Assembly: GCA_013824615.1 (NCBI GenBank) | Contig: PNOC01000036.1 | Span: forward strand, 1 to 37,311 | DNA: 37,311 bases | Reading direction: 5' to 3' | Source of the DNA: Thermodesulfovibrio sp. | GTDB taxonomy: Bacteria; Nitrospirota; Thermodesulfovibrionia; Thermodesulfovibrionales; UBA6898 | Shown: positions 15,603 to 30,264 of the stretch, piece by piece | Position numbering within the stretch: the stretch's first letter is position 1 | Layout of the letters: every line of letters begins with the position of its first letter | Program-made: the position numbers and the translations under genes | Notes under the pieces: model-generated | Databases searched by the model: none | Told to the model about the DNA's origin: nothing | The model's input: the letters and a program-made list of their open reading frames with translations, nothing else

Positions 15603-17402
15603 TTGCATACAGGCAAATACTTTGGTGATTGGTTGCGGCATCTATGGAACGTACTTCCTCCGCAAGATGATCTTCCTCTGCTGAAATATGTCGTCTACCG
15701 GCTCGAAGAATCTGAAGATCTTTCACTGGCAGCAGCTAAGAAAAAGGCCTTGTTCTCTGTCACTGCTGTTTTTATCTCTGTCGCAGTAATATCTCTGGCC
15801 ATACTATTAACCAAGAAATTATTTTTTCCGGACGACATATATTGGATAAATGCTGAACTCCATACCCTTTTCGAGGCCTTTAGTGGTTTGATTTCAATCA
15901 TAATCGGCATGATATTGACCTGGGAATATTCCAGGTCAGGGAAAGTAAATATCCTTTTTCTGGTCTATTCTTTTTTTTCATTTGGCATTCTCAGTTTTTT
16001 TCATGCTTTCTCGAATTATTCTCACAATCTGGTCGTCTGGTTTCATTCATTAAGCGCCCTGCTGAGTTCCTTATTCTTACTTGTTTCAATATTAGTGCAT
16101 CGAACCGATGAAGCCTATCCTGTCCAGTTAATATGGGTAAGAAGATTCTCGGTTTTTTCCGCAACCTTTTTGATCCTTGTCTTGGCAGTTTTGTCCCATG
16201 CATTTTATACATATATTCCCGACGTTCTCTCCGTATCTTTTCAACACCATACCCATGTTTCCATGGCAAAAGGCCAATTCAGCATATATATATATGGCAT
16301 TAATCATATTTCCGCCTTGATTTATTTTATTGCGGGTATCCTGTTTATCAGGGGGTTTTTGAGAACCTATGATATTATTTATCTGATTTTTGGGACCTCG
16401 GCGCTGCTCTTTTTCATCAGTGAGCTTTTTTTCGGTTTGTCGAATTTATGGAATCCCCTGTGGTGGTATTGGCATATCATAAAAGCACTCATATTTGCAG
16501 GTCTTATCTCAGGTCTTGCCTACGGTTTCACGAGGAGCTTCTACCGGCTCAATACGTCCAGGATCCAGATGGCAACTCTGCTCGAGAACATCGGGAAGAA
16601 GAATATAGAAATTGAGAAGGCGTATGTAACCTTAAAAGAGACCCAGAAATACCTTAACGAATCCGAGAAACTTGCCTCTATCGGCAAAATGGCTGCTATG
16701 ATGGCCCACGAAATAAGGAACCCGCTCGGCGCAATCTCAAATTCAGTTGGTGTTCTAAAGAAATATAGTTTGCGTCCGGACGAAACCAGTGAACTCCTTA
16801 CCCTGGTAGAAGATGAGATGGAGAGATTAAATAAATTAACAGAAGATTTTCTGAGTTTTGCCAAACCTTCACGTCTCAGAAGAGATAAAACAGACCTGAA
16901 CACGGTCCTTGACGAAACGCTCTTTTTTTTGAACACTGAAAAGATACAATCCTCCGGTATCACCTTTCAAAAGCTGTTCGCTCCTGATATCCCGCTGCTC
17001 ATGCTGGACAGAAATCATATGAAGCAGGTTTTTATCAACATCCTGATGAATTCCATACAGGCGATGCCTGAGGGCGGAGTGATAGCGATTCAGACAATAT
17101 ACAGAAACAAAGAAGATGAGGTTCAGATTACTTTTGCTGATACGGGGATAGGAATGACCGAGGATGAACTTTCGCTGGTATTTCAACCTTTTTATACGAC
17201 AAAGGATAAGGGCTTGGGGTTGGGGTTCAATATTATTCATAAGATTGTTAAAGAACATGGAGGATACCTTCTTCTGTCGAGCAAAAAAAATGAAGGCACT
17301 GAAATAACGTTGAGCTTTACCGTACCCCCTAAATCTGCCGACCTGGATACGCAAAATGACGTTATTGCACCATCTGGCTATCGTAATGGACGACTAGAAT
17401 GA
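15603..17402 (+). CDS. Membrane histidine kinase, NtrB-type output, MASE3-like sensor
   Basis: 599-residue sensor kinase. Residues ~50-310 contain seven to eight hydrophobic helices. The segments HTLFEAFSGLISIIIGM and ILSFFHAFS resemble the MASE3 integral-membrane sensory domain. A short coiled coil leads to HisKA with phospho-acceptor His369 in MMAHEIRNPLGAISNS, typical of kinases that pair with NtrC regulators. The HATPase domain has NSIQAMPEGG, DTGIGM and KGLGLGF motifs. The TTG start is chosen because AGGGA lies seven bases upstream; the frame stays open upstream to 15495 but has no better start codon. Its TGA overlaps the ATG of the regulator (ATGA), so the two are translationally coupled. 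The signal is unknown. Confidence 0.88.
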   Translation: MHTGKYFGDWLRHLWNVLPPQDDLPLLKYVVYRLEESEDLSLAAAKKKALFSVTAVFISVAVISLAILLTKKLFFPDDIYWINAELHTLFEAFSGLISIIIGMILTWEYSRSGKVNILFLVYSFFSFGILSFFHAFSNYSHNLVVWFHSLSALLSSLFLLVSILVHRTDEAYPVQLIWVRRFSVFSATFLILVLAVLSHAFYTYIPDVLSVSFQHHTHVSMAKGQFSIYIYGINHISALIYFIAGILFIRGFLRTYDIIYLIFGTSALLFFISELFFGLSNLWNPLWWYWHIIKALIFAGLISGLAYGFTRSFYRLNTSRIQMATLLENIGKKNIEIEKAYVTLKETQKYLNESEKLASIGKMAAMMAHEIRNPLGAISNSVGVLKKYSLRPDETSELLTLVEDEMERLNKLTEDFLSFAKPSRLRRDKTDLNTVLDETLFFLNTEKIQSSGITFQKLFAPDIPLLMLDRNHMKQVFINILMNSIQAMPEGGVIAIQTIYRNKEDEVQITFADTGIGMTEDELSLVFQPFYTTKDKGLGLGFNIIHKIVKEHGGYLLLSSKKNEGTEITLSFTVPPKSADLDTQNDVIAPSGYRNGRLE

Positions 17403-18757
17403 TGAAGATACTCGTTATCGATGACCAGATAGGAATGAGAAAAAGCCTCGGTATATTATTGAGGAAGGAGGGTTTTTCAACTGACGAGGCCGAGAACGGG
17501 ACGCAAGCCATTTCATATCTTGAAAAAGGTTTTTACGATCTTGTCATTACAGATATGAAGATGTCTCCGGGGACAGGACTGGACGTTCTTTACTATATAA
17601 AAGAGCGGCTCCCCAAAACCGACGTTATAATCATGACCGGATACGGTACGGTAGACTCTGCCGTACTGGCCATGAAGATGGGAGCTTTCGATTACATTTC
17701 GAAACCGTTCAAAAACGAGGAAATACTGCACAGAGTCAGAAAATCAATGAATCATCTGGAAACAGCAAAAGAGCTGTCTTCATTGCAGAAGGCAGTAACA
17801 TCCGAAAACAACAAAATCCCCCTTTTAGGTACCAGTGCCGCTATCAAAGAGATCGTGGCCGTCATGCATAAGATTTCGAATCTGGATATAGCGATATTGA
17901 TTACGGGAGAGACCGGGACCGGGAAGAGTCTTATCGCAAAGACAATCCACAGCCTCAGCTCTAGAGCCGACAAGCCCTTTGTCTCGATTAACTGCGCTTC
18001 TGTTCCCGAACAGCTGCTCGAAAGTGAGCTTTTCGGGCATGAAAAGGGCGCCTTTACCGGGGCACTCCTCGAAAGGAGGGGACTATTCGAGGCGGCAGAG
18101 GGAGGGACAATACTGCTCGATGAAATAGGCAGTATGCCTTTTGCGATGCAGGCGAAATTACTGGACGTTCTTCAGGACCGGGCGGTCCGGAGGATTGGCA
18201 GTAATAAGAGTAAAGCAATACATGCAAGAGTTATTGCCGCCACGAATACAGACCTTGTCAGCGCAATTGATAACGGCTCCTTTCGCAGCGACCTGTATTA
18301 TCGGATAAAGGTAGCCCATATCCATGTCCCGCCACTGCGGAACCATGCCGAAGATATACCTTTTCTTGCAGAGCATTTTCTGGAATCAACAAGAAAAGAT
18401 ATGGACAACACCGGTGTTCATTTCTCTCCGGAGGCCCTCGACTTCCTGCAGCAGTATAAATTCCCGGGGAATGTGAGAGAGCTCGCCAATGCAATCTCCG
18501 GCGTTGCAGCCGTTGCAGCAGGCAATATTATTTCGGCCCAGGATTTGGCACTCACGCTCACGAGCAGTCTTTTTGAAATTCACTCCCCGGTCCCTGCAGA
18601 TAAAGAGACGCAGCCCAACAGTCTCGATGAATGGGAAAAGGAACTAATCGTTGAAAGCCTCAGGAAAAATCCGGGCAATCTCACCAAGGTATGCAGTGAG
18701 TTGAAAATCGGCAGGACAACGCTCTGGAGAAAAATGAAGAAATATAATATTCAATAA
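17399..18757 (+). CDS. NtrC-family sigma54-dependent response regulator
   Basis: 452-residue enhancer-binding protein of full domain order. The receiver domain has phospho-acceptor Asp52 in VITDMKMSPGTG. The AAA+ domain has Walker A GETGTGKS (from Gly170), the sigma54-contact loop GAFTGA at 217-222 and Walker B LLDEIGS. The C-terminal Fis-type helix-turn-helix is NLTKVCSELKIGRTTLWRKM. It should activate sigma54 promoters after phosphorylation by the coupled kinase. It converges, with a 20-base gap, on the end of the copper-enzyme operon, whose divergent promoter region carries two sigma54 promoters and paired enhancer-like sites. It is the only sigma54 activator in the window and thus the best candidate regulator of that operon (inference). 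Confidence 0.95.
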   Translation: MMKILVIDDQIGMRKSLGILLRKEGFSTDEAENGTQAISYLEKGFYDLVITDMKMSPGTGLDVLYYIKERLPKTDVIIMTGYGTVDSAVLAMKMGAFDYISKPFKNEEILHRVRKSMNHLETAKELSSLQKAVTSENNKIPLLGTSAAIKEIVAVMHKISNLDIAILITGETGTGKSLIAKTIHSLSSRADKPFVSINCASVPEQLLESELFGHEKGAFTGALLERRGLFEAAEGGTILLDEIGSMPFAMQAKLLDVLQDRAVRRIGSNKSKAIHARVIAATNTDLVSAIDNGSFRSDLYYRIKVAHIHVPPLRNHAEDIPFLAEHFLESTRKDMDNTGVHFSPEALDFLQQYKFPGNVRELANAISGVAAVAAGNIISAQDLALTLTSSLFEIHSPVPADKETQPNSLDEWEKELIVESLRKNPGNLTKVCSELKIGRTTLWRKMKKYNIQ

Positions 18758-18777: not shown

Positions 18778-19074
18778 CTACTTAAGCCACTGAATCAGAT
18801 CTATCGTAATCAGGAAATTCGCCCCCTCCTCTTCCCTGACCCTCTGATAAAATTCACAGGTTCTGCAGTCTACATACTTCTTTGCAAAGCTGCCCTGGAT
18901 TTCACCACCACACATCGTCCCGGCAACCACCCAGCATACCCTGCCGGCATTCTTGCCTCCATGCGCAGAATCAAGCTTCGTATAGCTTGCAGCAGGACAA
19001 ACGCCGAGTTCTTCGGCCTTCTCTCCGCCAAATTGCCTGCCGCAATTCTTAATATCCCAACAGTTTTTTTTCAT
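18778..19074 (-). CDS. Two-CW domain-containing protein
   Basis: 98-residue soluble Cys-rich protein with two related Cys-Trp motifs, KKNCWDIKNCG at the N-terminus and GRVCWVVAGTMCGG in the middle, plus CPAA and a CRTCEF pair. This matches the small two-CW family seen in anaerobic bacteria, of unknown biochemical role; the cysteines suggest metal or Fe-S binding. The ribosome site GGAG is 6 bases before the ATG. It is the last gene of the long minus-strand operon, 55 bases after the NosL-barrel fusion. Confidence 0.85.
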   Translation of the reverse strand: MKKNCWDIKNCGRQFGGEKAEELGVCPAASYTKLDSAHGGKNAGRVCWVVAGTMCGGEIQGSFAKKYVDCRTCEFYQRVREEEGANFLITIDLIQWLK

Positions 19075-19129: not shown

Positions 19130-20590
19130 TTAAAACATGAACTGTATACCTGCGTTGAGGAACCATGTGGTTTTCAATTGCAGACCGTTCAGGTTCTGGT
19201 AGATTGGCACGCCGCCTTCAACCCCAATGCTGAAGGCGCCTTTCTGATAGCTCACACCGATCGCGCCATCGAGGCGCCGACCGCCATAGTTGAGGGGGTC
19301 AGCGTCAGGAGTAGGCACCCCCATCCCCGTTACGGGATGTATGAGCTTCTCAATCTCAGAGTCTTTGCCCTTTATCCGTGACGCATCAGTATAGGCAAAA
19401 CGCATCCAGGAGGCGGCACGGCTGAAGGTTCTCTGGATCCAGCTGTTCGCCTTTAAACTGTCACCAAAACTCCAGCCGTTCTTGTTTTTTGCAGTGTGCC
19501 ATGTGTACATGGCCTGCGCGCCCCAGTTCCATTTTGCGTCGTTGCTGAGAACGTTATAGGTAAGAGCAGGTTTGAGGTCATATGAGCCCGAACCAAGTTG
19601 CATGTCATAGGGTGCGCGGTATTCCTTCCGCATCATAGTTATTGTCTCACGTACACTACCGGTAGGAAGGCTGAGCCCAAGACTTCCTGTAAAATACTTG
19701 TTGATCTTGCATATCCCTCTCAGCTCAATGTCGCCGAACCCTCTGGTAGTCATGGGGTCCTCTTGCACAATTGGTTTCATCGGGCCCATGTCCATCAGCA
19801 TGTTCATCTTGTTAGATTGATAATTGGCCATGGTCATTATTGTCAGCTGATCGGTAATCCCATACATCAGCATCAGCATATGCATATCCATTGTCATACT
19901 GGTCGGAATCATCATATAGGAATACTGCGTGGGCCTATTGAACCCGACACTGCTTTTGTCGACATTTTTCGTACCGTCGCGCAGCCCCCTCATGTTCACG
20001 TGCATGAATTTGTAATTGACCATCCACATGCCGGCCGGGTGAGTATGGTAGATATCGTCACCAAATGCGGGATTGAACAACATTTGAGAACCCGCCCCCA
20101 TATTGTGACCAGCATGTCCATGCCCCTCGTGGGTGGTCTTCGTGCCCTCAACTGTTTCCCCGTTAGCAGCCCGCATGGCCTCATCGAATTTTATCACAGT
20201 CCCGCCGTTTTCCTTAACAAATGACTGAGCGTCCTTCTCTGCAGCAAAGGCCCATTTTGCAACAGAGGTCATAACGCCATCTTTTCTTCCTCCGTTTACC
20301 CAGATTGCGGTCCGGGCATCAATCAGGTCTCTTGTCGTATAATCAGCAACCAATAGGGACTTGATCGGCTTGCCCTCGTTTTGTTTCAGCTCAGAGGAAG
20401 CACAGTGGAGACTGCAGACCGCTACCGTTGTCCCGTCGTCATAAAGAATAAGCATCCGGCCTTGGGCAAAAACAGTTCGGTCCATCCCGCATTGTTTGCA
20501 GGCCTTGTAATTATCAACCGTGTCAGCTGAGGTTGCGGTTGCAATGACAGACAGCATAAGTATCAACAACAATAAAGTAAATCTTTTCAT
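19130..20590 (-). CDS. NosL copper-chaperone domain fused to an outer-membrane beta-barrel
   Basis: 486-residue exported protein with a signal peptide (~1-22). Residues ~28-142 form a NosL-type domain: CKQCGM (Cys31, Cys34, Met36), a second cluster Cys59-Ser-Leu-His62-Cys63, Met107 in GVMTSVAKWAFA, then the final GGTVIKFDEAM strand. NosL binds Cu(I) and delivers it to the copper centre of N2O reductase. A His/Gly linker (THEGHGHAGHNMG) follows, and residues ~170-486 are a Met-rich beta-barrel of the outer-membrane transporter-like kind, ending in an aromatic Phe as barrel proteins do. The fusion is unusual: NosL is normally a free lipoprotein. In this operon it probably handles copper for the Tat-exported propeller enzyme. 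The ribosome site AAGGAG is 7 bases upstream. Confidence 0.85.
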   Translation of the reverse strand: MKRFTLLLLILMLSVIATATSADTVDNYKACKQCGMDRTVFAQGRMLILYDDGTTVAVCSLHCASSELKQNEGKPIKSLLVADYTTRDLIDARTAIWVNGGRKDGVMTSVAKWAFAAEKDAQSFVKENGGTVIKFDEAMRAANGETVEGTKTTHEGHGHAGHNMGAGSQMLFNPAFGDDIYHTHPAGMWMVNYKFMHVNMRGLRDGTKNVDKSSVGFNRPTQYSYMMIPTSMTMDMHMLMLMYGITDQLTIMTMANYQSNKMNMLMDMGPMKPIVQEDPMTTRGFGDIELRGICKINKYFTGSLGLSLPTGSVRETITMMRKEYRAPYDMQLGSGSYDLKPALTYNVLSNDAKWNWGAQAMYTWHTAKNKNGWSFGDSLKANSWIQRTFSRAASWMRFAYTDASRIKGKDSEIEKLIHPVTGMGVPTPDADPLNYGGRRLDGAIGVSYQKGAFSIGVEGGVPIYQNLNGLQLKTTWFLNAGIQFMF

Positions 20591-20685: not shown

Positions 20686-21219
20686 TCACATCCCCTCCCT
20701 GAGGACCCAGGTGTCCGTATTGGGTGTTATCCAGTATAAACTCTCACCGGAATTGCTGCGAAGGCCGGTCTCGGTTCTCAGGAGGAAGCGTACCAGATAC
20801 CTGATCATCATATTAATATCTCCTTCACTGGTAACATACAATGCCGGGATGTTAAGGGGTATGTTCACCATATATTCCACGTTCCGCCCCTCCCGGGGGA
20901 GTAGCACGGTGCCTTCCCCGCCTCCATGGTGGGAAGCGCTCAGTTCCTGCCATTTGCCGAGAATATCTGTCTGAACATAAAAAGTCTCGTTGTTTTCTTT
21001 CAATACTATGGTATTGTTTGACCGGTTATATATAGTGAGGTCTACTCTATAATTGTTATTGCCCTGATAAGAGATCTTCCTTACGCTGACGTCAATATAC
21101 TCAAAAGAGGCATTCGCTGCAAAACAATCACCGGCAGCTATATTCCCGAGTACGAGAGCAGCAAACCAACTCCATCGGGTAAGGACGTGAAGCCGGGCTA
21201 TCCATGCAGGGAATTTCAC
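20686..21219 (-). CDS. Exported beta-rich protein, distant relative of the two anchored operon proteins
   Basis: 177-residue protein with a signal peptide (hydrophobic WFAALVLGNIAAG, cleavage near CFA-AN). The mature part is all-beta in style, with alternating stretches such as YRVDLTIYNRSNNTIVL and YVQTDILGKWQEL. Its order of features (strand pair, xVQT..W.E strand, basic/acidic loop, a VNIPL strand, an IRYLVRF strand) parallels the proteins at 21733-22377 and 22466-23161, so I read it as a third, divergent member lacking their membrane anchor. The start is GTG with a weak ribosome site. No function known; its place suggests enzyme assembly or copper handling. Confidence 0.75.
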   Translation of the reverse strand: MKFPAWIARLHVLTRWSWFAALVLGNIAAGDCFAANASFEYIDVSVRKISYQGNNNYRVDLTIYNRSNNTIVLKENNETFYVQTDILGKWQELSASHHGGGEGTVLLPREGRNVEYMVNIPLNIPALYVTSEGDINMMIRYLVRFLLRTETGLRSNSGESLYWITPNTDTWVLREGM

Positions 21220-21304: not shown

Positions 21305-21718
21305 TCACTTGACATTAACATTAAACACCGCGGTGTCCTCACCCTTTTTCCCTTTATTTATCCTGACATATATCTCCCATAGTCCGGACATACTGAGGTT
21401 GAGCTGTTCAACTGCATATTCCCCGTTGCCAAGCTCCTTTATGACCGGTAGTGTACTTGTCCCATGCTCATGTGCCGGCATCCAGGTGACTATCTCAATA
21501 TCCAGTTTCTGCTTTAAGGGTGTCTTTGATTTGCGGTCCCCAATGAAGAGTTTAAGGCTGTTGTTTCCAATCTTTGCCGGAGCGCCCTTAAAATCGATCG
21601 AGACAAAATACAACCCCTGTTCCGTTGTATTTTGCTGCACGGCAAAGCCGAACAGAAAGCAACTCAGAAGCATGATGAGTCCCAGGGAAAGCCTTCGTTT
21701 CACGGTATATGTATTCAT
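21305..21718 (-). CDS. YtkA/FixH-like exported protein
   Basis: 137-residue protein with a signal peptide (~1-27) and a single immunoglobulin-like domain. The motifs VTWMPAHEHGTSTLPVIKEL and LNLSMSGLWEIYVRI are characteristic of the YtkA-like domain; its conserved HxHG and Met resemble metal-binding sites seen in periplasmic copper proteins, though binding is not shown. The ribosome site AGGAGG sits 7 bases before the ATG. It lies 14 bases after the second anchored paralogue, clearly in the same operon. Confidence 0.82.
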   Translation of the reverse strand: MNTYTVKRRLSLGLIMLLSCFLFGFAVQQNTTEQGLYFVSIDFKGAPAKIGNNSLKLFIGDRKSKTPLKQKLDIEIVTWMPAHEHGTSTLPVIKELGNGEYAVEQLNLSMSGLWEIYVRINKGKKGEDTAVFNVNVK

Positions 21719-21732
21719 GAGATATCCTCCTG

Positions 21733-22377
21733 TTAGTGGGGTGGCATTGGAATCATGGTGGGAACCTTGTTGTCCGGAAAGCTCACCTGTTTCAGAACTT
21801 CCTTATCACTCATGTAGTATGGCTTGAGATACATATATACATCATTGACCCTCTCGATCACCTCCTCTTCCTTGAAAGCGCTCTGGGGCAGTACGAACAT
21901 CGAAATGTGATATCGCACATGCATATACCCGTACATTTGATAGAACGTGTGTTTGATTTCACGTTTTATGGTAACTATCTTTCTATAGAAGTGTTCTCCT
22001 TTCTCGAGTTTGGCGACCTGTTCACGCTTCTCTGTCTGCTTGTCATGAATCGGCACCTCTGTCCAGTACGTCCCGGTTTGAACATAGGCGGTCACCTCGG
22101 GATAGGTGGCATACACCGGCTCATCGGCAAGATTCTCGATCTTGAGCACTGCCTCGTACTTTTCCGGAGAGCCGGGTATATCCCAGGCGTCCGACACATC
22201 CGGAAAAACCATCTGGAATGCCAGTTTTTCGAGCCGCTGTTTTTTGGCGTTCCTCTCCCTGATGATAGCATCCTGTTTCTGACCTATAATGAAATCAGCA
22301 AGGAAAAAAATCCCAACGATAGCCAGAACCACGGCAATTGGCTTCTTTATTCTCATTATGCCTGAAAAAAAGTTCAC
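21733..22377 (-). CDS. Membrane-anchored periplasmic protein, paralogue 2
   Basis: 214 residues: an N-terminal transmembrane anchor (~14-30), a short basic helix (QKQDAIIRERNAKKQRLEKL), then a ~160-residue beta-rich periplasmic domain. It matches its upstream neighbour at many positions: QxAIIxxRxAK after the anchor, ADEPVYxxYPEV, WxEVPI, EKxEQxxKL, YMHxxxxIxxxVLP, and YxYLKPxxxxxKE. This is a tandem duplication. The GTG start has GAGGA 8 bases upstream. No family name is known to me. Two such proteins beside two ABC ATPases suggest a periplasmic adaptor or substrate-handling role (inference). Confidence 0.78.
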   Translation of the reverse strand: MNFFSGIMRIKKPIAVVLAIVGIFFLADFIIGQKQDAIIRERNAKKQRLEKLAFQMVFPDVSDAWDIPGSPEKYEAVLKIENLADEPVYATYPEVTAYVQTGTYWTEVPIHDKQTEKREQVAKLEKGEHFYRKIVTIKREIKHTFYQMYGYMHVRYHISMFVLPQSAFKEEEVIERVNDVYMYLKPYYMSDKEVLKQVSFPDNKVPTMIPMPPH

Positions 22378-22465: not shown

Positions 22466-23161
22466 TCACTTGTTCCAATTTCTGAAACCGGTAATGGGCA
22501 TATACACCGGCACCTTGGTTTCACCAAAGTCAATCACCGCCGAGATCTCCTTCTCGGTTATCCAGAAAGGCTTGAGGTAAATATAGGTTTCGCTCTTTCT
22601 TTCGACGACCTCCCCTTCCTTGAAGCCGCTCTCCGGCAGCACGGAAAACCTGATAAGAAACTTGATATGCATATATTTAGGGATAAGATAGCGGTTGTAC
22701 GGTGTCTTTGGATCTATCGTCAGTATTCTCTGGAAGGGATGCGTTCCGCTGGGGAGCTTATACATCTGTTCTTTCTTTTCTGCCCTCCCGTGAGCGATAG
22801 GGACCTCCATCCAGGAGATGGTGCCGACCTGCATAAAGGCCCTCACCTCGGGATAGCTTATATACACCGGTTCATCAGCAACGTTGTCTATTCTGATCGT
22901 CACCGCGTACTGCCAGTTCTGTTTTATATCCCCGGTCTCCTCGATATCGCGGACATCAACCGACACCATGCGAAAGGCCTGTGTTTCGAGCGCTTTAATC
23001 TTTGCTTCTCTGTCTTTTATAATGGCTTCCTGTCGTGCGCCCACCACGTAATCAATCGCCGCCCCAATAAGTATAAGCACCAGCAATACGGCCAGGGCCT
23101 TCCGGCTTTTGAGGAGGGACAGTATCTTTCCTATATAAGAAGGGCTCATCGCAGGGTCCAT
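22466..23161 (-). CDS. Membrane-anchored periplasmic protein, paralogue 1
   Basis: 231 residues with a transmembrane anchor (~20-42), a charged helix and a ~170-residue periplasmic beta-rich domain. It aligns along its full length with the next gene (shared DEPVYISYPEV/DEPVYATYPEV, SGFKEGEVVER/SAFKEEEVIER and YLKPFWITEKE/YLKPYYMSDKE). It begins 3 bases after the stop of the ABC ATPase gene, without its own strong ribosome site, so translation is probably coupled. Function unknown; see paralogue 2. Confidence 0.78.
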   Translation of the reverse strand: MDPAMSPSYIGKILSLLKSRKALAVLLVLILIGAAIDYVVGARQEAIIKDREAKIKALETQAFRMVSVDVRDIEETGDIKQNWQYAVTIRIDNVADEPVYISYPEVRAFMQVGTISWMEVPIAHGRAEKKEQMYKLPSGTHPFQRILTIDPKTPYNRYLIPKYMHIKFLIRFSVLPESGFKEGEVVERKSETYIYLKPFWITEKEISAVIDFGETKVPVYMPITGFRNWNK

Positions 23162-23164
23162 GTA

Positions 23165-23893
23165 CTACGCCGCGCAGGGAGTACAGGCCACGACTTCGTC
23201 TTTCAGGAATACGCCGTCTTTCAGATGAATAATTCGGTCTGCCCTGTTCGCGATTTCGAGATCATGTGTGGATATGACGATGGCGATGCCTTTTTCTTTC
23301 GAGAGTTTGCGGAACGTGTCGATCACGAATAACCGGTTGGCACGGTCGAGGTTTGCCGTCGGCTCGTCAGCCAGTATCATTGCAGGATGTGTTATAAGTG
23401 CCCGCGCAATAGCCACCCGCTGTATCTCACCGCCGCTGAGCTGACTGGGCATATGGTATATCCGGTGTCCCAACCCCAGCGACTTGATGATCTCTATCCC
23501 TTCATCCTTTATATTTCCGTTGCGGTTCTTCGGCTTGAAGAAATTAAAGGGCAGCAGGGTATTCTCCAATACATTCAGCATGCGGAGAGGTTTTGCGTCC
23601 TGAAAGATAAAACTGAATTTCTCTCTGCGGAAATGCACAAGATCTTCTTCTGACAACCCGTCTATCCGGATCCCTTCAAGGAGGACCTCTCCCCTGGTCG
23701 GCCGGTCCAGAGAGCCGATGATGTTTAACAACGTTGTCTTGCCGGACCCGCTCGGCCCGACAAGGGCAACCAACTCTCCCTTGTTGATCGATAGGGAGAC
23801 ATGCTCCAATGCAGTCACCTCACCGGAGGCTAAATTAAACGTCTTGTTCACATCCTTCAGCTCTAAGAATGGGGTACCCTTACTCGTGTCCAT
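23165..23893 (-). CDS. LolD/MacB-type ABC transporter ATPase (second set)
   Basis: About 242-residue ABC ATPase with Walker A GPSGSGKTT, Q-loop at FIFQD, signature LSGGE, Walker B MILADEPTANLD and the switch His in VISTHDLE. The family energises FtsX/MacB-type permeases that move lipoproteins or other periplasmic material. I place the start at the ATG at 23893, because GGAGGG lies 7 bases upstream and the permease stop is 2 bases away; an in-frame ATG at 23908 would overlap the permease. The C-terminus ends in a CTPCAA pair of cysteines, unusual for the family. Works with the permease just upstream and probably the one before it. Confidence 0.92.
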   Translation of the reverse strand: MDTSKGTPFLELKDVNKTFNLASGEVTALEHVSLSINKGELVALVGPSGSGKTTLLNIIGSLDRPTRGEVLLEGIRIDGLSEEDLVHFRREKFSFIFQDAKPLRMLNVLENTLLPFNFFKPKNRNGNIKDEGIEIIKSLGLGHRIYHMPSQLSGGEIQRVAIARALITHPAMILADEPTANLDRANRLFVIDTFRKLSKEKGIAIVISTHDLEIANRADRIIHLKDGVFLKDEVVACTPCAA

Positions 23894-23895
23894 AA

Positions 23896-25086
23896 TCAAC
23901 CCTCCCATTGGCTTCTGAAACTGTCTGTGATTTTGATTTTTGATAAGCGGTACGTCGGATAAAAACTCGCGATAAGACTGCAGAATACGCCCACCAGCAG
24001 AGCCACCAGCACATAGAGGATGTTAATTTTTATTCCGGCCCCGAGTTTAAGGAGCAGCGAATCCAGCAGATACGTCATGATAAGGCCGAGCGGATAGCCT
24101 ATCAGGCCGCCCATCAGCCCTATCGACAGATATTCAGAGAGAAATATGGTCAGAAGCTGCGACCGGGACGCCCCGACGGACTTCAGCAGCCCGATTTCCT
24201 TTATCCGGGAATAAAGCACACTTGTCACGATATTAAAGATCGAAAATATACTCACGGCAATAGTGGCCACAACGATCGCCATCAGGAATTTGAGCGATTT
24301 TTTCAGCAGCGCATATTTCATGGTGCTGAATTGCTGTGGCGAAAGGGCCATAATATTCGGAATATTTTTGTTAATCTCCGCAACCGCTGTCTGGAGCATT
24401 TTTTTGTCTTTATCGAGTGATACATTCTGAATGTTGATAACAGACACAAAGCCGCTTTTATTGTAGAGTTTTTGTATCACGGCAAAAGGTGCAAACACCA
24501 TATAATCTTCAGAGGAGTTATAGTTCTGAAGAATCCCGGCAACTTTAAACTCTGACCCGCCAAGGGTAACCGTATCCTGCAACGATACCTTGCGTGAGCT
24601 GGCATACGATCCTCCCAGGACAGCTTCCTGATCGTTTTCCGGCCACCTCCCGCTGGTCAGTTTCCAGGAAGGCTTAGCCTCTAATTCGGTTTTGAAATCA
24701 ATGCCTGCGACGACCGAGCTGACCTTCGCCTTTCCGATGAGCAGATCATCTTCCTGATAGAAGCGCACGACGGTGATGACCTTGTCCTTGGGATTGCGGA
24801 TAGTTTCCCGTACGATCCTTTCAACGTCGGCAATGACGCCCTCCGGAATATATTCCTGCGTATTTACCCCGATCTGGCTGATCTTGTCCACGCGGATATT
24901 CTTGGGCTGGACGATCAGGGTGAACCCAAACTTGGAGGCCAGGGTCGACAGGGAACTGTCTGCATTGTCGAAGGTGAGGAGAATCGTGCTGAGGATGGCG
25001 ACCGGAATGACGATAGCAATCAGCAGATAGAGGCTTTTTCCCTTTCTTCTGAAAATATCCTTTATAGCCAGGACAATAAGTTCCAT
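23896..25086 (-). CDS. FtsX/MacB-type ABC permease (third permease)
   Basis: 396-residue membrane protein: one N-terminal helix (~18-40), a ~220-residue periplasmic MacB-like domain (GRWPENDQEAVLGGSYA motif), then three C-terminal helices with the FtsX coupling region EIGLLKSVGASRSQLLTIF. This is the topology of type VII ABC permeases that act on periplasmic substrates rather than transport across the inner membrane. It resembles the preceding permease (25088-26503) in order and motif. A GGAG site lies 7 bases before the ATG; the gene abuts its neighbours on both sides. Confidence 0.9.
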   Translation of the reverse strand: MELIVLAIKDIFRRKGKSLYLLIAIVIPVAILSTILLTFDNADSSLSTLASKFGFTLIVQPKNIRVDKISQIGVNTQEYIPEGVIADVERIVRETIRNPKDKVITVVRFYQEDDLLIGKAKVSSVVAGIDFKTELEAKPSWKLTSGRWPENDQEAVLGGSYASSRKVSLQDTVTLGGSEFKVAGILQNYNSSEDYMVFAPFAVIQKLYNKSGFVSVINIQNVSLDKDKKMLQTAVAEINKNIPNIMALSPQQFSTMKYALLKKSLKFLMAIVVATIAVSIFSIFNIVTSVLYSRIKEIGLLKSVGASRSQLLTIFLSEYLSIGLMGGLIGYPLGLIMTYLLDSLLLKLGAGIKINILYVLVALLVGVFCSLIASFYPTYRLSKIKITDSFRSQWEG

Positions 25087-25087
25087 A

Positions 25088-26503
25088 TCAGCTCTCCCAT
25101 TGCGTTCTGAAGGTTTCGGTTATTTTAAGTTTCGACAGTTTATACGCCGGATATATAATTGCCACCAGGCTGCAGACGATCCCCAGGGCGAGCGCTCTCC
25201 AGAGAAAAGCAGTGGTTATCAGGATGACGGCGCCTATGTCCAGAAGAGAATTCAGTACGTAAGCCATTCCCAAGCCGAGCACATAGCCGCCGATGCCTGC
25301 TGCCAGGCCGAGGATGAAATGTTCATAAATGAATATTCTGAATAACTGAAATCTGGAGGCGCCTATGGCCTTTAACATGCCTATCTCCCGAATACGCGCA
25401 TACAGAGAGCCGGTGACGATATTGAAGATAGAGAAGATACCGACGGCGATCGTTGAGATAACAACTGCGAGCAAAAATTTATACAACATGCTGAAGAAAT
25501 CAAACTGCACCCCCGCGACATCAAGCTGGGAAACAGCCGTAATACCGGTAACATTTTTATTCAATTCCACCATGGCATCGCCAACCGGGCAGTTGGGACA
25601 CATGGCCCGGACGCTCACCATTGAGACCAGTCCCTCTTTATGAAACAGTCTCTGGGCAGTGCTCATCGGGATGTACACCATATAATCATCGGCTGAGTTC
25701 GTCTCCTCCAGAATCCCCCTGACGGTGAATTCAGTTTTATTGATAGTAAGCTTGTCCCCCAGCTTCAGTCCTTTAGATTTTGCATAGGCCCCCCCCAGAT
25801 ACGCATCATCCCACCCCTTAAGAATCGGCTTCAGCGGTGCCGCCTTGACTTTCTTATCTTGAGCCGCAATAAGTTTACCGCTGGAATCAACGCCATACTC
25901 AGCTTTATCAATCCCGACTTTACCATCGGAGCCTATGGTAAATATTGAAGCAATATTAGTATTGACATCTCTGACATCGGTTTCTGCCGGCCAGTCACCG
26001 CTGGTCAGGTTCCACCAGAACCTGACAAAATACTCTTTCCGTATCTCGATGCCGGTAACGATCACTTCCTGTCCATCCACCTCAGCCTTTTCGAAGAGCC
26101 GGGGCGCCCAGGTGGCAGGTTCCAGGACAATATCCGGAATTCCCGGTGTAGATACCAGGCCACCCTTCTTCTCCCAGCCGGCTTTTATCGCCTTTTCATA
26201 GTTTTTCATGATTTCGGGGACCGCAGCCTCGGGAATATATGAGCCCAGAACTACTTCAGACGTGGTCAATTTATACTCCTGTTTCTGTTCTTCACCACTG
26301 CTGCCTGCGGAGGAGGCCGAAGGCCGCACTGTCAGGGTATGGCCTGTCTTGGCGATAATCTCCATGATCGCCAGATTCGCTGAATTGCTCACAATTGAGA
26401 GGGAGGTGAGGAGGGCGACCGCTATGACGATCGAGGAGGCAATGACCAGATTCTTCTTCGGTCTTCGCAGCAGTTCGAACATGGCGAGTTTCATGATCTT
26501 CAT
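25088..26503 (-). CDS. FtsX/MacB-type ABC permease (second permease)
   Basis: 471-residue type VII permease with an N-terminal helix (~18-40), an enlarged periplasmic domain (~45-345) and three C-terminal helices carrying EIGMLKAIGASRFQLFRIF. The periplasmic part holds the usual SGDWPAETD and LGGAYAKSKGLKLGDKL motifs plus two cysteines in RAMCPNCPVG, a CxxC pair not seen in the other two permeases; it might bind copper or form a disulfide. The ATG overlaps the stop of the upstream ATPase gene by 4 bases. Confidence 0.9.
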   Translation of the reverse strand: MKIMKLAMFELLRRPKKNLVIASSIVIAVALLTSLSIVSNSANLAIMEIIAKTGHTLTVRPSASSAGSSGEEQKQEYKLTTSEVVLGSYIPEAAVPEIMKNYEKAIKAGWEKKGGLVSTPGIPDIVLEPATWAPRLFEKAEVDGQEVIVTGIEIRKEYFVRFWWNLTSGDWPAETDVRDVNTNIASIFTIGSDGKVGIDKAEYGVDSSGKLIAAQDKKVKAAPLKPILKGWDDAYLGGAYAKSKGLKLGDKLTINKTEFTVRGILEETNSADDYMVYIPMSTAQRLFHKEGLVSMVSVRAMCPNCPVGDAMVELNKNVTGITAVSQLDVAGVQFDFFSMLYKFLLAVVISTIAVGIFSIFNIVTGSLYARIREIGMLKAIGASRFQLFRIFIYEHFILGLAAGIGGYVLGLGMAYVLNSLLDIGAVILITTAFLWRALALGIVCSLVAIIYPAYKLSKLKITETFRTQWES

Positions 26504-27234
26504 GATTTGCAGACCCCCTCCATGATTGCCTCAACCGGATCGGCAAGATCTTTAAAAATCAACCCGTCCTTCATGACTATTATTGTCTTCGCTTTTTCGA
26601 GCCAGGTGAGGCTGTGGCTGACAACGATAAGCGTCTTCTGATAGGTCTTGTTTATTTGACAGAATATATCGATAACCTCGCGCTCTGTTCTGATGTCCAG
26701 TTCTCCGGTCGGCTCATCAGCCAGAATGATCTCGGGATCGTTTATGAGCGCCCGGGCTATCGCAACCCTTCTCTGCTCGCCGCCGGAGAGCTCTGAAGGA
26801 AAGGAATTGACCTTTCTCTTCATATCAAGGTCGGTCAATAAGGATATCGCCTTGGACTTAAGGGCCTCGGTGTCTTTTCTCTCTGAATTCGTGCTGAATA
26901 TAGCCGGCATGACAACGTTGTTTAAGACGTTCAGTGTCGGCAATAAACTGAAGGATTGAAACATAAAGCCTATCTTCCTGTTTCTGAAATGTGAGAGCTG
27001 TTTGTCGTTGAGTTTCCAGATATCATTCCCCTCAATCAGGACCGTCCCTTCGGTAGGCCTTGTCAGACCACCGATCGTGCTGACCAGGGTTGTCTTGCCT
27101 GAGCCGGAATGCCCCATAAAAACCACAAAATCGCCCTTGGCTATCTCCAGGTCAACCCCCTTCAGGGCCTCCACCTTCTGGCCGCCTACGTGATAGATCT
27201 TTTTCAAGCCTTTGGTCTCGATGAATTCGCTCAT
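26500..27234 (-). CDS. LolD/MacB-type ABC transporter ATPase (first set)
   Basis: 244-residue ATPase with Walker A GHSGSGKTT, Q-loop FMFQS, signature LSGGEQRR, Walker B IILADEPTGELD and switch His in VVSHSLTWLEKA. The D-loop and switch region differ slightly from the usual HD pair (HS instead of HD). Starts one base after the stop of the first permease and overlaps the next permease by 4 bases, so it belongs to a tightly coupled unit. With two ATPases and three permeases in the operon, two separate transporters or one mixed complex are possible. Confidence 0.92.
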   Translation of the reverse strand: MSEFIETKGLKKIYHVGGQKVEALKGVDLEIAKGDFVVFMGHSGSGKTTLVSTIGGLTRPTEGTVLIEGNDIWKLNDKQLSHFRNRKIGFMFQSFSLLPTLNVLNNVVMPAIFSTNSERKDTEALKSKAISLLTDLDMKRKVNSFPSELSGGEQRRVAIARALINDPEIILADEPTGELDIRTEREVIDIFCQINKTYQKTLIVVSHSLTWLEKAKTIIVMKDGLIFKDLADPVEAIMEGVCKS

Positions 27235-27235
27235 G

Positions 27236-28450
27236 TCATAACCCCTGTTTCATAGTTTCGTGAGGATCGATTCTGACTGCTACAAGAGCAGGATAGGCTG
27301 ACCCGCTGATTCCCATCAGCAACGCCACCAGTATCGCTGCACCGGCCATCTCACCCATAACGCCAAGGGGAGGCAGCATAAAAGGTATATTGAGCAGCCG
27401 GAGATAGAAGACAATCGATCTCTGAAATATCTTCAGCAGACCACCCCCTATGAGCATGCCCAGGAAGCCGCTCATAATGCTGGTCAGCAGGGCCTCGTAG
27501 ATAATGAGCTTGAAGATATCGAGCCTCGTAGCGCCGATGGCTCTGATTATGCCGAGCTCTCTCTTGCGTTCATTGACCACTGCGGAGTAAATAGCATTAA
27601 TCATGAGCACGTTCGAAAGGACCAGGATGATGATCAAGGCTATAATGCCGGAAAAAACGGCAACCGTTGTCTGTCGGGCCGAGGTCGCGATATTTCCTGT
27701 GGTGATGGCCTTGAGTTCCGGATTTTCCTTTAAAATGGAAAAGGTGATAAAGGGTATTTTTGCCCCGACCTCAAGCTGTACCAGGCCGCCGGATATCTTT
27801 CCTTTTAATGAAGCCAGCGGCTTAATCGACTTGTCGGTCTGGGAATAATCCGACATTTCATGGGCCTTGTTGATATTAAAGAAGATCGCATTGTCATACA
27901 ACCCAATCCCTGTTCTTTCGAGCTTTCCCCAGACGGTAAGAGGAATTCCGTAGAACTTCACATTGTCCCCTATCTCCCACGGTGTCATCGCTCCGATAAT
28001 TGCGCCGTCCGCAGGAAAGGCCTTCTCAGCTTTTTTATCGACCCAGGGCATGACCGTAAAATCATCGGCCGGATCGAACCCTATGAGAAAGGAGTTCCCC
28101 AGAACGCAGCATTCCCCGGTTGCGCTGGTGAGAAATATCTGGCCGGACACCCTCTTGACTCCCTTGAGCCCACGTATCTTGCCAAGCACTGCGTTGTCCA
28201 TATAAAAGGCAGACGGCTCACCGGTCAGGAGAGCGGATTTCATATTAACCAGAGAGTCCTTGGGGATGACAAGGAGATCAGCCCCCAGCTTCGAGAGCCC
28301 TTTATCCAGGCTGTGATGGATCCCGGTAATAAGCAGCGAGGATGCGAACAGGGCCCCGATGACGATACTGACACTTATCAGGATTATATAAAACCGCAAG
28401 TGCTTCACCTGCAGATTCTGGTATGCCAATCTGAATAGAGATACGATCAT
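27236..28450 (-). CDS. FtsX-type ABC permease (first permease)
   Basis: 404-residue type VII ABC permease with an N-terminal helix (~20-42), a periplasmic domain with GAIIGAMTPWEIGDNVKFYG, and three C-terminal helices including RELGIIRAIGATRLDIFKLI, the coupling helix that contacts the ATPase. It is the first transporter gene after the propeller enzyme, from which it is separated by 123 bases holding a strong hairpin. Ribosome site GGGAGG is about 11 bases from the ATG. Its periplasmic domain differs most from the other two permeases. Confidence 0.9.
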   Translation of the reverse strand: MIVSLFRLAYQNLQVKHLRFYIILISVSIVIGALFASSLLITGIHHSLDKGLSKLGADLLVIPKDSLVNMKSALLTGEPSAFYMDNAVLGKIRGLKGVKRVSGQIFLTSATGECCVLGNSFLIGFDPADDFTVMPWVDKKAEKAFPADGAIIGAMTPWEIGDNVKFYGIPLTVWGKLERTGIGLYDNAIFFNINKAHEMSDYSQTDKSIKPLASLKGKISGGLVQLEVGAKIPFITFSILKENPELKAITTGNIATSARQTTVAVFSGIIALIIILVLSNVLMINAIYSAVVNERKRELGIIRAIGATRLDIFKLIIYEALLTSIMSGFLGMLIGGGLLKIFQRSIVFYLRLLNIPFMLPPLGVMGEMAGAAILVALLMGISGSAYPALVAVRIDPHETMKQGL

Positions 28451-28573: not shown

Positions 28574-30115
28574 CTAGGTAGTAGGGCAGCGTGAAATTGC
28601 CAGTCCCTTGATTGAACTGGGGACAATAACATTATCGTGGTGTCCATAGGGACTCGGAAGAAAGCCATACAACTTATCGTCCTTGACCCGTATCATAAAG
28701 GTCCCGGACTTTGTCTTTTGATAGCCGCTATAGACGCTGAATACCCATTTCCCATCATCCGTACACGCCAGGGTATGCACATCAGGGCCGATGTCTATCG
28801 TCTTTGTAATCTTCCAGGTCTTGGTATCAACAACCGCGACGCTGTTCATACTTGGAGAAGGCCACCACAGACTGACATACAGTTTTTTTCCGTCAGGGGT
28901 AAACGCCATATGGAACGGATTGGGATACACACCCCTCCAGCTCGGATCACCCACGCCTGCGATTCTTCGCCAGGTGGTAGGGTCTTTCTGATTGCTGGAG
29001 TCAAAGACGGCCATCTCGTTTTCTCTGGCATTATTCATGAGGACGAAGCGGTCTCCGGTAGGATTAAACCCGGCCTGGTGCGCAGGGGTCGGTACGTTCT
29101 TGAACTTTGCTGTCCATTCACCGTCACCGACCTTGGTTAACGGGACCTGATACCCCTGGTCCTTATGTTTTACAGATCCGACACACACAGCCTTTGGTTC
29201 AAAGGTCGTCGTATCAAAGACAACGCCACAACCGATAACCCTCAGCGCAGCCACCGCATATTTTTTGTTAAACGGGTCCCAGCAGAGGGAATCCAGGGCA
29301 CAGAGGTTCTTCAGACGCGGACCAGGCACCTTCCCCTGCTCGGCAAAGAGTTCGCCTCCGGGGACAAGTTCCCAGTCTATCTTGCAGCCCTTTGTACCTT
29401 TCAGGTCATAGGGAGGCTTCAATTTCTTGATAGTAAGCGTTCCGCCATCAACCCATGCCCGGGCAAGGTCTTTCATATTATTGGGTTCCCAGTCGAACAT
29501 TATGCATGCTTCTACGGTAGACGGCTGGGTGCCTTTACCCCTTTTGAATACGCCGATAATATCTTTCTGTCCGTCAGCCACCGAAAAGCGTTCATTGTCA
29601 GGCGCAACCGTCACATGCACACCAAGACCGATACCAGTCGTTTCAGCAACGTCCTCCAGTATATTCATCTTGGTGCCGTCATAATTTATGCGCCAGATAT
29701 TGAACCCCTCAGCCGGCTCTTTTACCGGGGTTGTGACTCCATAGATAAATAGATTTTTTCCTCCCTGGGAGTCCAGGACGAATTCAAACTCCTTGTAGGG
29801 ATCCGGTGAGGCAAAGGCAGCCAAATGGTGGGTAATCGGAGTTTTATTTCCGGCCCATATGCTCATATTCATCCAGGCCAGGCAATGACCGGTTGACATA
29901 TCATACGCGCCGACTCCGCCGCCGTACTTGCCGGGGACCAGGTGGATATACTTGCCGAACTGCTTGTAGACATCAAAGAGTGTGGGATCGCTAAACATGG
30001 CAGCATCAGCGACGCCTGAAGAACTGATTTTCTCACCAAGACCGAGCTTAGCAAGACCGCCGATTGCGGCTCCGGCAACTGCCCCTTTGAATAAATTGCG
30101 TCTCGAAATAGACAT
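28574..30115 (-). CDS. Tat-exported copper propeller enzyme, thiocyanate dehydrogenase-like (NosZ superfamily)
   Basis: 513-residue protein with a Tat signal (SRRNLFKG, cleavage ~35-40), so it is folded before export to the periplasm. The rest is a seven-bladed beta-propeller of the N2O-reductase superfamily. Candidate copper ligands are His96/His97 (THHLAAF), His167 (LGVHVTV), His346 (PAHQAGF), His402 (PFHMAF), His447 (PDVHTLA) and His492/493 (GHHD). Intervals of 71, 179, 56, 45 and 46 match those I remember for Thioalkalivibrio thiocyanate dehydrogenase, and Glu249 and Asp275 fit its acidic active-site residues. There is no CuA cupredoxin domain, which NosZ always has, so N2O reduction is unlikely. 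The expected reaction is thiocyanate to cyanate and sulfur, but a related substrate cannot be excluded. First gene of the long operon, with a GGGAGG ribosome site and a sigma54 promoter upstream. Confidence 0.8.
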   Translation of the reverse strand: MSISRRNLFKGAVAGAAIGGLAKLGLGEKISSSGVADAAMFSDPTLFDVYKQFGKYIHLVPGKYGGGVGAYDMSTGHCLAWMNMSIWAGNKTPITHHLAAFASPDPYKEFEFVLDSQGGKNLFIYGVTTPVKEPAEGFNIWRINYDGTKMNILEDVAETTGIGLGVHVTVAPDNERFSVADGQKDIIGVFKRGKGTQPSTVEACIMFDWEPNNMKDLARAWVDGGTLTIKKLKPPYDLKGTKGCKIDWELVPGGELFAEQGKVPGPRLKNLCALDSLCWDPFNKKYAVAALRVIGCGVVFDTTTFEPKAVCVGSVKHKDQGYQVPLTKVGDGEWTAKFKNVPTPAHQAGFNPTGDRFVLMNNARENEMAVFDSSNQKDPTTWRRIAGVGDPSWRGVYPNPFHMAFTPDGKKLYVSLWWPSPSMNSVAVVDTKTWKITKTIDIGPDVHTLACTDDGKWVFSVYSGYQKTKSGTFMIRVKDDKLYGFLPSPYGHHDNVIVPSSIKGLAISRCPTT

Positions 30116-30248: not shown

Positions 30249-30264
30249 AGCAATTCGAATGCCA
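30249..30264 (-). promoter_or_regulatory. Sigma54 promoter of the copper-enzyme operon
   Basis: On the minus strand the sequence reads TGGCATTCGAATTGCT, against the consensus TGGCACGNNNNTTGCT: both invariant GG and GC pairs at correct spacing and only two mismatches. Transcription would begin near 30239, giving a leader of ~124 bases before the enzyme gene. The paired enhancer sites are centred ~110 bp upstream. Confidence 0.75.

Follow-up and report, generated by a model that had tools for sequence, protein, structure and literature searches.

How ionic copper passes the outer membrane to reach copper enzymes in the periplasm is a poorly known step, and a gene of a Thermodesulfovibrio sp. 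raises the question of whether a channel and a copper chaperone can share this step on a single chain. The gene lies on the minus strand at 19130-20590 of the window (the whole stretch of DNA analysed, 37,311 nucleotides) and encodes 486 amino acids from an ATG that is preceded, 6 bases 5', by a good ribosome-binding site, AAGGAG (20602-20597). It was described in the original prediction as a NosL domain joined to an outer-membrane barrel, with the caution that a frameshift or an assembly error might have fused two genes. This artefact is ruled out, because the same join recurs, without stops, in 18 loci of independent assemblies. Among 61 genomes (the genome of the window and 60 relatives), 12, its own included, contain a full-length match without an internal stop, and identity is 57-72% in the other 11. 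In a genome collection holding one genome per species, the window protein finds 10 loci with best segments 50-68% identical, 8 of them named Nitrospirae or Ca. Magnetominusculus and 2 named Geobacter/Geobacteraceae. Removal of the 4 loci common to both searches leaves 18 distinct fused loci, all aligned, in Nitrospirota and Geobacteraceae at roughly 50-72% identity; the named relatives of the host are uncultured Nitrospirota. All 18 fusions keep the barrel, the NosL motifs C..CGM and C...C with the Met of GxM, and a linker that varies in length but is rich in His and Met. The gene is confirmed as one real open frame in which a His/Met linker joins a NosL domain to what is predicted to be an outer-membrane barrel of 12 strands. 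The literature searches found no paper describing such a protein; it represents known parts in a combination that is new as far as these searches extend.

The N-terminal half of the fusion begins with a putative export signal at residues about 1-22 (20525-20590; boundary placed by eye), within which the AlphaFold2 model contains a helix at residues 3-15. The protein sequence has no lipobox Cys, the first Cys being C31. The NosL domain follows at residues ~25-147 (20150-20518). Pfam NosL (PF05573) matches residues 25-138 with an E value of 2.7e-14 and 54.1 bits against a cut-off of 24, and it is matched at E <=1 by 11 of 11 fusion members. A profile built from the 11 homologues retrieves solved NosL chains (best 7og7, 2.4e-10), and VIA-align places 7og7 on the fusion model with Z 12.4 and rmsd 2.9 over 116 aligned residues. 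The motifs first read from the sequence are all present: C31-x-x-C34-G35-M36 (residues 31-36), C59-SLH-C63 (59-63), and M107. The Cys residues, G35, M36, and M107 are invariant in the 11 aligned homologues. The domain thus contains the CXXCXM copper motif together with a second conserved Met (C31, C34, M36 and M107), the arrangement that PMC6530538, in its available part, gives for clade II NosL, where NosL is a delivering Cu(I) chaperone. In sequence family, CXXCXM motif, second conserved Met, and fold, the domain resembles known NosL (PF05573; 7og7, 7znq). However, canonical NosL is a free lipoprotein of about 180 amino acids encoded in a nos cluster next to nosZ, and it is described as lipid-anchored in the accessible text of PMC7558416, whereas the fusion lacks a lipobox, carries a barrel, and has as its copper-enzyme neighbour a homologue of thiocyanate dehydrogenase (TcDH). 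A separate arrangement, tandem NosL with two adjoining NosL matches in one frame of about 300-370 amino acids, is present in seven genomes of the same family (G008, G014, G018, G020, G024, G025 and G026).

The C-terminal part is connected to the NosL domain by a His/Gly/Met linker, residues 148-170 (20081-20149), which is a low-confidence region of the model, and by a segment preceding strand 1, residues 171-187 (20030-20080), which contains an invariant H182-T-H184-P (HTHP). The barrel then occupies residues 188-486 (19133-20029). AlphaFold2 modelling of the whole fusion (11 sequences; pLDDT 69.9, pTM 0.58) yields a NosL-like fold and 12 barrel strands, the latter obtained by grouping the strand list of the model at residues 189-485; modelling of the barrel alone (9 sequences) gives pLDDT 73.7 and pTM 0.75. 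Confidence in the fusion model is middling. Still, the expectation of a His/Gly linker and a Met-rich barrel with an aromatic C-terminus is borne out in these models and in the sequence, since the linker lies at about 148-170, the chain is Met-rich and ends in ..QFMF, and a barrel is predicted, with 12 strands. The best Foldseek matches to the model are FapF and the COG4313 channel 4rl8. The closest fold among the predicted models is that of 4rl8, to which VIA-align gives Z 24.1 and rmsd 2.6 over 241 aligned residues for the whole model, and Z 25.0 and rmsd 2.4 over 246 for the barrel. The likeness to the COG4313/PF13557 channel (Pput2725, 4rl8) includes both the 12 strands and the segment before strand 1, although sequence identity is 14%, and the portion of the COG4313 description at hand (PMC4493636) mentions no Met wall of the kind considered below. 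The window protein matches PF13557 (Phenol_MetA_deg) weakly (10.5 bits against a cut-off of 22, E 0.61). According to the same partial source, the COG4313 channel is a 12-stranded barrel whose lumen is filled by its first fourteen residues. Since the range of 4rl8 that aligns with the model begins at chain residue 2, the invariant HTHP probably sits in a COG4313-type lumen plug. In two fusions (L060:4545-6167 and L061:3-1613), strands 3 and 4 are separated by a long Ser/Gly/Met repeat insert, which probably lies on the cell surface.

The most distinctive portion of the barrel consists of strands 1-3, residues 188-268 (19787-20029). Here 16 Met residues are invariant in 11 fusions: M188, 190, 196, 200, 232, 234, 236, 238, 240, 242, 252, 254, 262, 264, 266 and 268. 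Overall, the barrel contains 28 Met in 317 residues (8.8%), within a range of 8.8-10.8% over the 18 fused barrels. When each strand is split into its two faces in 24 sequences (18 fused and 6 distant unfused barrels), Met makes up 67% of one face in strand 1, 82% in strand 2, and 41% in strand 3. These Met faces are nearly devoid of aliphatic and aromatic residues (0.01-0.07), while the opposite face is of the lipid type (0.51-0.66), and in the remaining nine strands Met does not exceed 12% on either face. These residue patterns suggest that the Met face of strands 1-3 looks into the lumen. The rows of Met and His that were to be located in the barrel are a Met face on strands 1-3 with the invariant HTHP adjoining it. 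The HTH is also retained in 5 of 6 unfused barrels from other Nitrospirota families.

The genes around the fusion place it in the operon of a putative copper enzyme. The fusion is gene eleven of a run on the minus strand beginning at 30115. The first gene (28574-30115) encodes a TcDH homologue of 513 amino acids with a Tat signal (SRRNLFK near the N-terminus), 54.9% identical to 5f75 over 457 columns; it matches 8q9x with 576 bits and TcDH structures at 1e-160 to 1e-172. Each of the 13 active-site residues listed in the consulted portion of PMC6504805 is present (K103, H135, H136, Q156, H206, E288, D314, H381, H437, H482, H528, D529 and R544), and the site is apparently intact. An early guess from the His pattern, that this propeller is a lactonase-type N2O reductase, is rejected; the L-NosZ model gives only 16.8 of 700 bits. 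There follow an FtsX/MacB-type permease (27236-28450), a LolD-type ABC ATPase (26500-27234), two further FtsX/MacB-type permeases (25088-26503 and 23896-25086), and a LolD/MacB-type ABC ATPase (23165-23908). Next are two conserved cluster proteins of unknown function that are paralogues of each other (22466-23161 and 21733-22377), a YtkA-like protein of 137 amino acids (21305-21718; Pfam YtkA E 7.7e-12), and a third conserved cluster protein of unknown function, 177 amino acids long (20686-21219), with homologues in five other TcDH clusters (L054, L072-L075). Directly 3' of the fusion, on the same strand, is a gene for a two-CW domain protein (18778-19074; NCBIfam NF045718, E 1e-31). Convergent with the operon, on the plus strand, are a sensor histidine kinase (15603-17402) and a sigma-54-dependent response regulator (17399-18757). 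A weak sigma-54-like -24/-12 site with 1 mismatch lies 134 bases 5' of the TcDH homologue (30249-30264, minus strand), where 1.54 such sites are expected by chance in the window.

Thiocyanate dehydrogenase is a copper enzyme, and in Thioalkalivibrio its cluster rises on thiocyanate; the authors of that work state that copper acquisition is still to be worked out (PMC5328954, PMC5744179, both in part). The Thioalkalivibrio clusters have the same core as the window, namely TcDH, two permease/ATPase pairs, unknown proteins, a kinase, and a sigma-54 regulator. They differ in that copCD and tatA flank TcDH, and the sections of these descriptions that were available name neither NosL nor a fused barrel, whereas the run in the window contains the YtkA-like protein, an extra permease, and the NosL-barrel fusion. 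The enzyme is also named for a Thiohalobacteraceae MAG in the accessible part of PMC8906906. No cyanase was found in the genome of the window, so any growth of its host on thiocyanate through the usual pathway is hypothetical. For the copper supply of thiocyanate dehydrogenase, the step missing from the Thioalkalivibrio work, the fusion is a candidate.

The tie between the fusion and TcDH is local, because only a fraction of the TcDH clusters contain the fusion and 16 of the 18 fusions lie away from TcDH. Strong TcDH homologues are present in 6 of the 61 genomes, and the fusion is inside the TcDH cluster in two of the six, that of the window (G000) and that of G013. In a third, G017, what stands at this position is a remnant of the barrel, 25 residues long (L072:5554-5628, minus strand), and a full fusion lies on another contig; the clusters of G022, G010 and G053 lack the fusion. 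The idea that the fusion is a fixed part of TcDH clusters is rejected on this count, as is the grouping of the TcDH-linked fusions of the window and G013 in one clade (p-AU 0.003). Since the TcDH proteins of these two genomes are 91-92% identical despite the separate lineages of their fusions, the slot in the TcDH cluster probably received or regained a fusion on more than one occasion. In one Geobacteraceae locus (L059), a MacB-type permease and a LolD-type ATPase (L059:6606-8476) lie directly 5' of the fusion, with no TcDH match in the 20 kb of sequence covered.

Most of the other fusions share a different kind of neighbour. For 13 of the 18 fusions, a small same-strand ORF ending in -PP- stands upstream at a distance of up to about 3 kb, sometimes with at least one gene between. 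The five fusions outside this count are that of the window, in which no leader ORF matches; L054, which like that of the window is TcDH-linked; the Geobacteraceae fusions L057 and L059, for which a leader was looked for and none found; and L061, which is cut at a contig end, so that the count does not cover its upstream side. A leader also lies upstream of 9 of the 9 unfused barrels read (8 and L081), and three relatives, G018, G025 and G026, have the NosL and barrel halves as separate adjacent genes 3' of a leader ORF. Three matches to the loose search expression, judged false by eye (L057, the first row of L077 and the second row of L080), are excluded from these counts. One step of the survey drew on a sample of 148 genomes from the phylum. 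All 22 aligned leaders have D40, C42, E60, P93 and P94, which follow a hydrophobic start. A profile search yields 76 copies (L112-L187) in 43 of the 61 genomes, for example L053:8462-8749 and G000:C44:26684-26962; the genome of the window has one leader, on another contig, 5' of a 266-amino-acid protein and a stand-alone NosL. As a control for chance, the leader motif was sought in loci totalling 958,308 bases, with overlaps counted twice; it matches 88 times there and 0 times in each of five block shuffles.

These ORFs resemble the leaders CruR and CutF (DUF2946) in being small, exported, and positioned at the head of an operon, and in having a Cys motif, a C-terminal PP, and a spacing of 51. 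The distance from Cys to PP is 51 residues in 49 of 69 leaders and 49-52 in 67 of 69 (7 of the 76 do not fit the search expression and are omitted). CruR, with CXXC at 90-93 and RAPP at 139-142 (PMC9426467, in part), has by arithmetic the same distance, 51, from C90 to its first Pro (P141). The leaders differ in that they have one invariant Cys only in place of CXXC, and the residue before PP is R, H, Q, Y or L, mostly giving [R/H]PP instead of an exact RAPP. DUF2946 is matched at E <=1 by 3 of 22 leaders (best 7.7e-4); scores of 18.2 and 18.7 fall below the cut-off of 23.7. The portions consulted of the CruR and CutF papers report that in vitro the RAPP of CruR is a site of ribosome arrest (PMC12992588) and that such leaders can switch genes either way with copper, CutF on and CruR off (PMC9426467, PMC9973294). 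By analogy, the ORFs described here may be arrest leaders that sense copper. Their downstream genes are mixed. The first gene, scanned for 72 of the 76 leaders, is most commonly a C_GCAxxG_C_C redox protein (30/72), which is no copper protein, followed by a TonB receptor plug (9/72), NosL (5/72), PF13557 (2/72), PCuAC (1/72) and YtkA (1/72); the second gene, scanned for 58, encodes NosL in 13, TatC in 4, and CopC in 2. NosL or a barrel is encoded <=5 kb downstream of 29 of the 76.

Taken together, these observations are best read as a copper channel with a tethered NosL chaperone, recruited in this genome to supply a copper enzyme, a reading to which we assign a probability of about 0.5. In this model, the barrel would adopt the COG4313 fold, with a lumen that carries the Met wall of strands 1-3 and, near the periplasmic mouth, the HTHP segment. 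The NosL half would lie in the periplasm, held by the His/Met linker instead of a lipid anchor. Copper would enter via the barrel and pass from the Met residues to the HxH, then to the His and Met of the linker, and finally to the CxxCGM of NosL, which would hand it to periplasmic copper enzymes. For most relatives, a leader ORF that responds to copper would seem to control the gene. The copy in the window lies instead in the operon of the TcDH homologue, where NosL and the FtsX/LolD ABC genes might load the copper site of TcDH, as NosL and NosDFY serve N2O reductase; NosDFY is known as the assembly machine of that enzyme (PMC7558416, in part, and general knowledge). Copper binding, the direction of import, the handover, and the regulation are all inferred. 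The proposal of the original prediction, that copper entry through the outer membrane is coupled to handover in the periplasm, is now better motivated by the Met face, the HTHP at the plug position, the copper-type leaders of the relatives, and the copper-enzyme operon found here. Neither of the two conditions that it named as refuting it applies, since a barrel is predicted and the join recurs; the TcDH operon and the leader ORFs were no part of that prediction. With channel and chaperone in a single polypeptide, point mutants would allow a direct test of the step.

A rather unlikely alternative is that the protein serves efflux or buffering in the manner of PcoB/CopB: NosL would capture periplasmic Cu(I) that is in excess, and the barrel would release it. 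PcoB (7pge) likewise has 12 barrel strands, an N-terminal part rich in His and Met, and a copper context, and its direction of transport is disputed (PMC9210255, PMC12509749, each in part); moreover, copper can turn genes off as well as on through leaders of the kind found here. VIA-align does place the model on 7pge (Z 12.9 for the whole model, 12.7 for the barrel). However, this match is far weaker than that to the COG4313 channel. PcoB came up in VIA-align only and is none of the Foldseek matches listed, and the window protein has no CopB match in Pfam at E <=1. In place of the folded chaperone of the fusion, PcoB/CopB has a disordered tail. An efflux role fits poorly with the position of the fusion in the operon of a homologue of a copper-requiring enzyme, and with the role of NosL as a chaperone that delivers copper.

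Less probable again is the view that the barrel is only an anchor, replacing the membrane lipid of NosL and passing no copper. The missing lipobox Cys in a relative of a lipid-anchored protein would agree with this, as would the COG4313 barrel being plugged by its own N-terminus. An anchor alone, however, would have no need of 16 invariant Met residues alternating on one face, a pattern that is partly kept in the unfused barrels of other families, and unfused barrels, too, have copper-type leaders. Least probable is that the barrel carries another substrate, whether hydrophobic, a sulfur compound or a complex of copper, with the NosL part only supplying a partner enzyme with copper: COG4313 relatives are tied to the uptake of trichlorophenol, sphingosine and aromatics, with hydrophobic substrates proposed (PMC4493636, in part), and PF13557 is matched at E <=1 by 9 of 11 fusion members (best 8.8e-5), but in the stretches read, Met-rich barrels of this kind are repeatedly accompanied by copper-type leaders and by NosL neighbours.

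The copper-channel reading can be extended, tentatively, to a joint proposal in three parts. A Met-lined barrel with an HxH plug would pass Cu(I) to the NosL of the same chain; this NosL, with the FtsX/LolD ABC genes as a machine of the NosDFY type, would build a TcDH-like copper site; and an undescribed Nitrospirota family of arrest leaders, with one Cys, a distance of 51 residues, and [R/H]PP, would sense copper. This whole is possible, though on balance doubtful. The leaders themselves point to a broad family of peptides in uncultured Nitrospirota that may sense copper.

Upstream of 5 of the 6 distant unfused barrels (L188-L192, from other Nitrospirota families) lies a small ORF that is rich in His, has two Cys close together and ends in RAPP or RGPP; one such ORF has a weak DUF2946 match. 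Downstream of these Met-rich barrels is encoded a protein, perhaps cupredoxin-like, that carries the conserved motif HTLHTY..CDRH.
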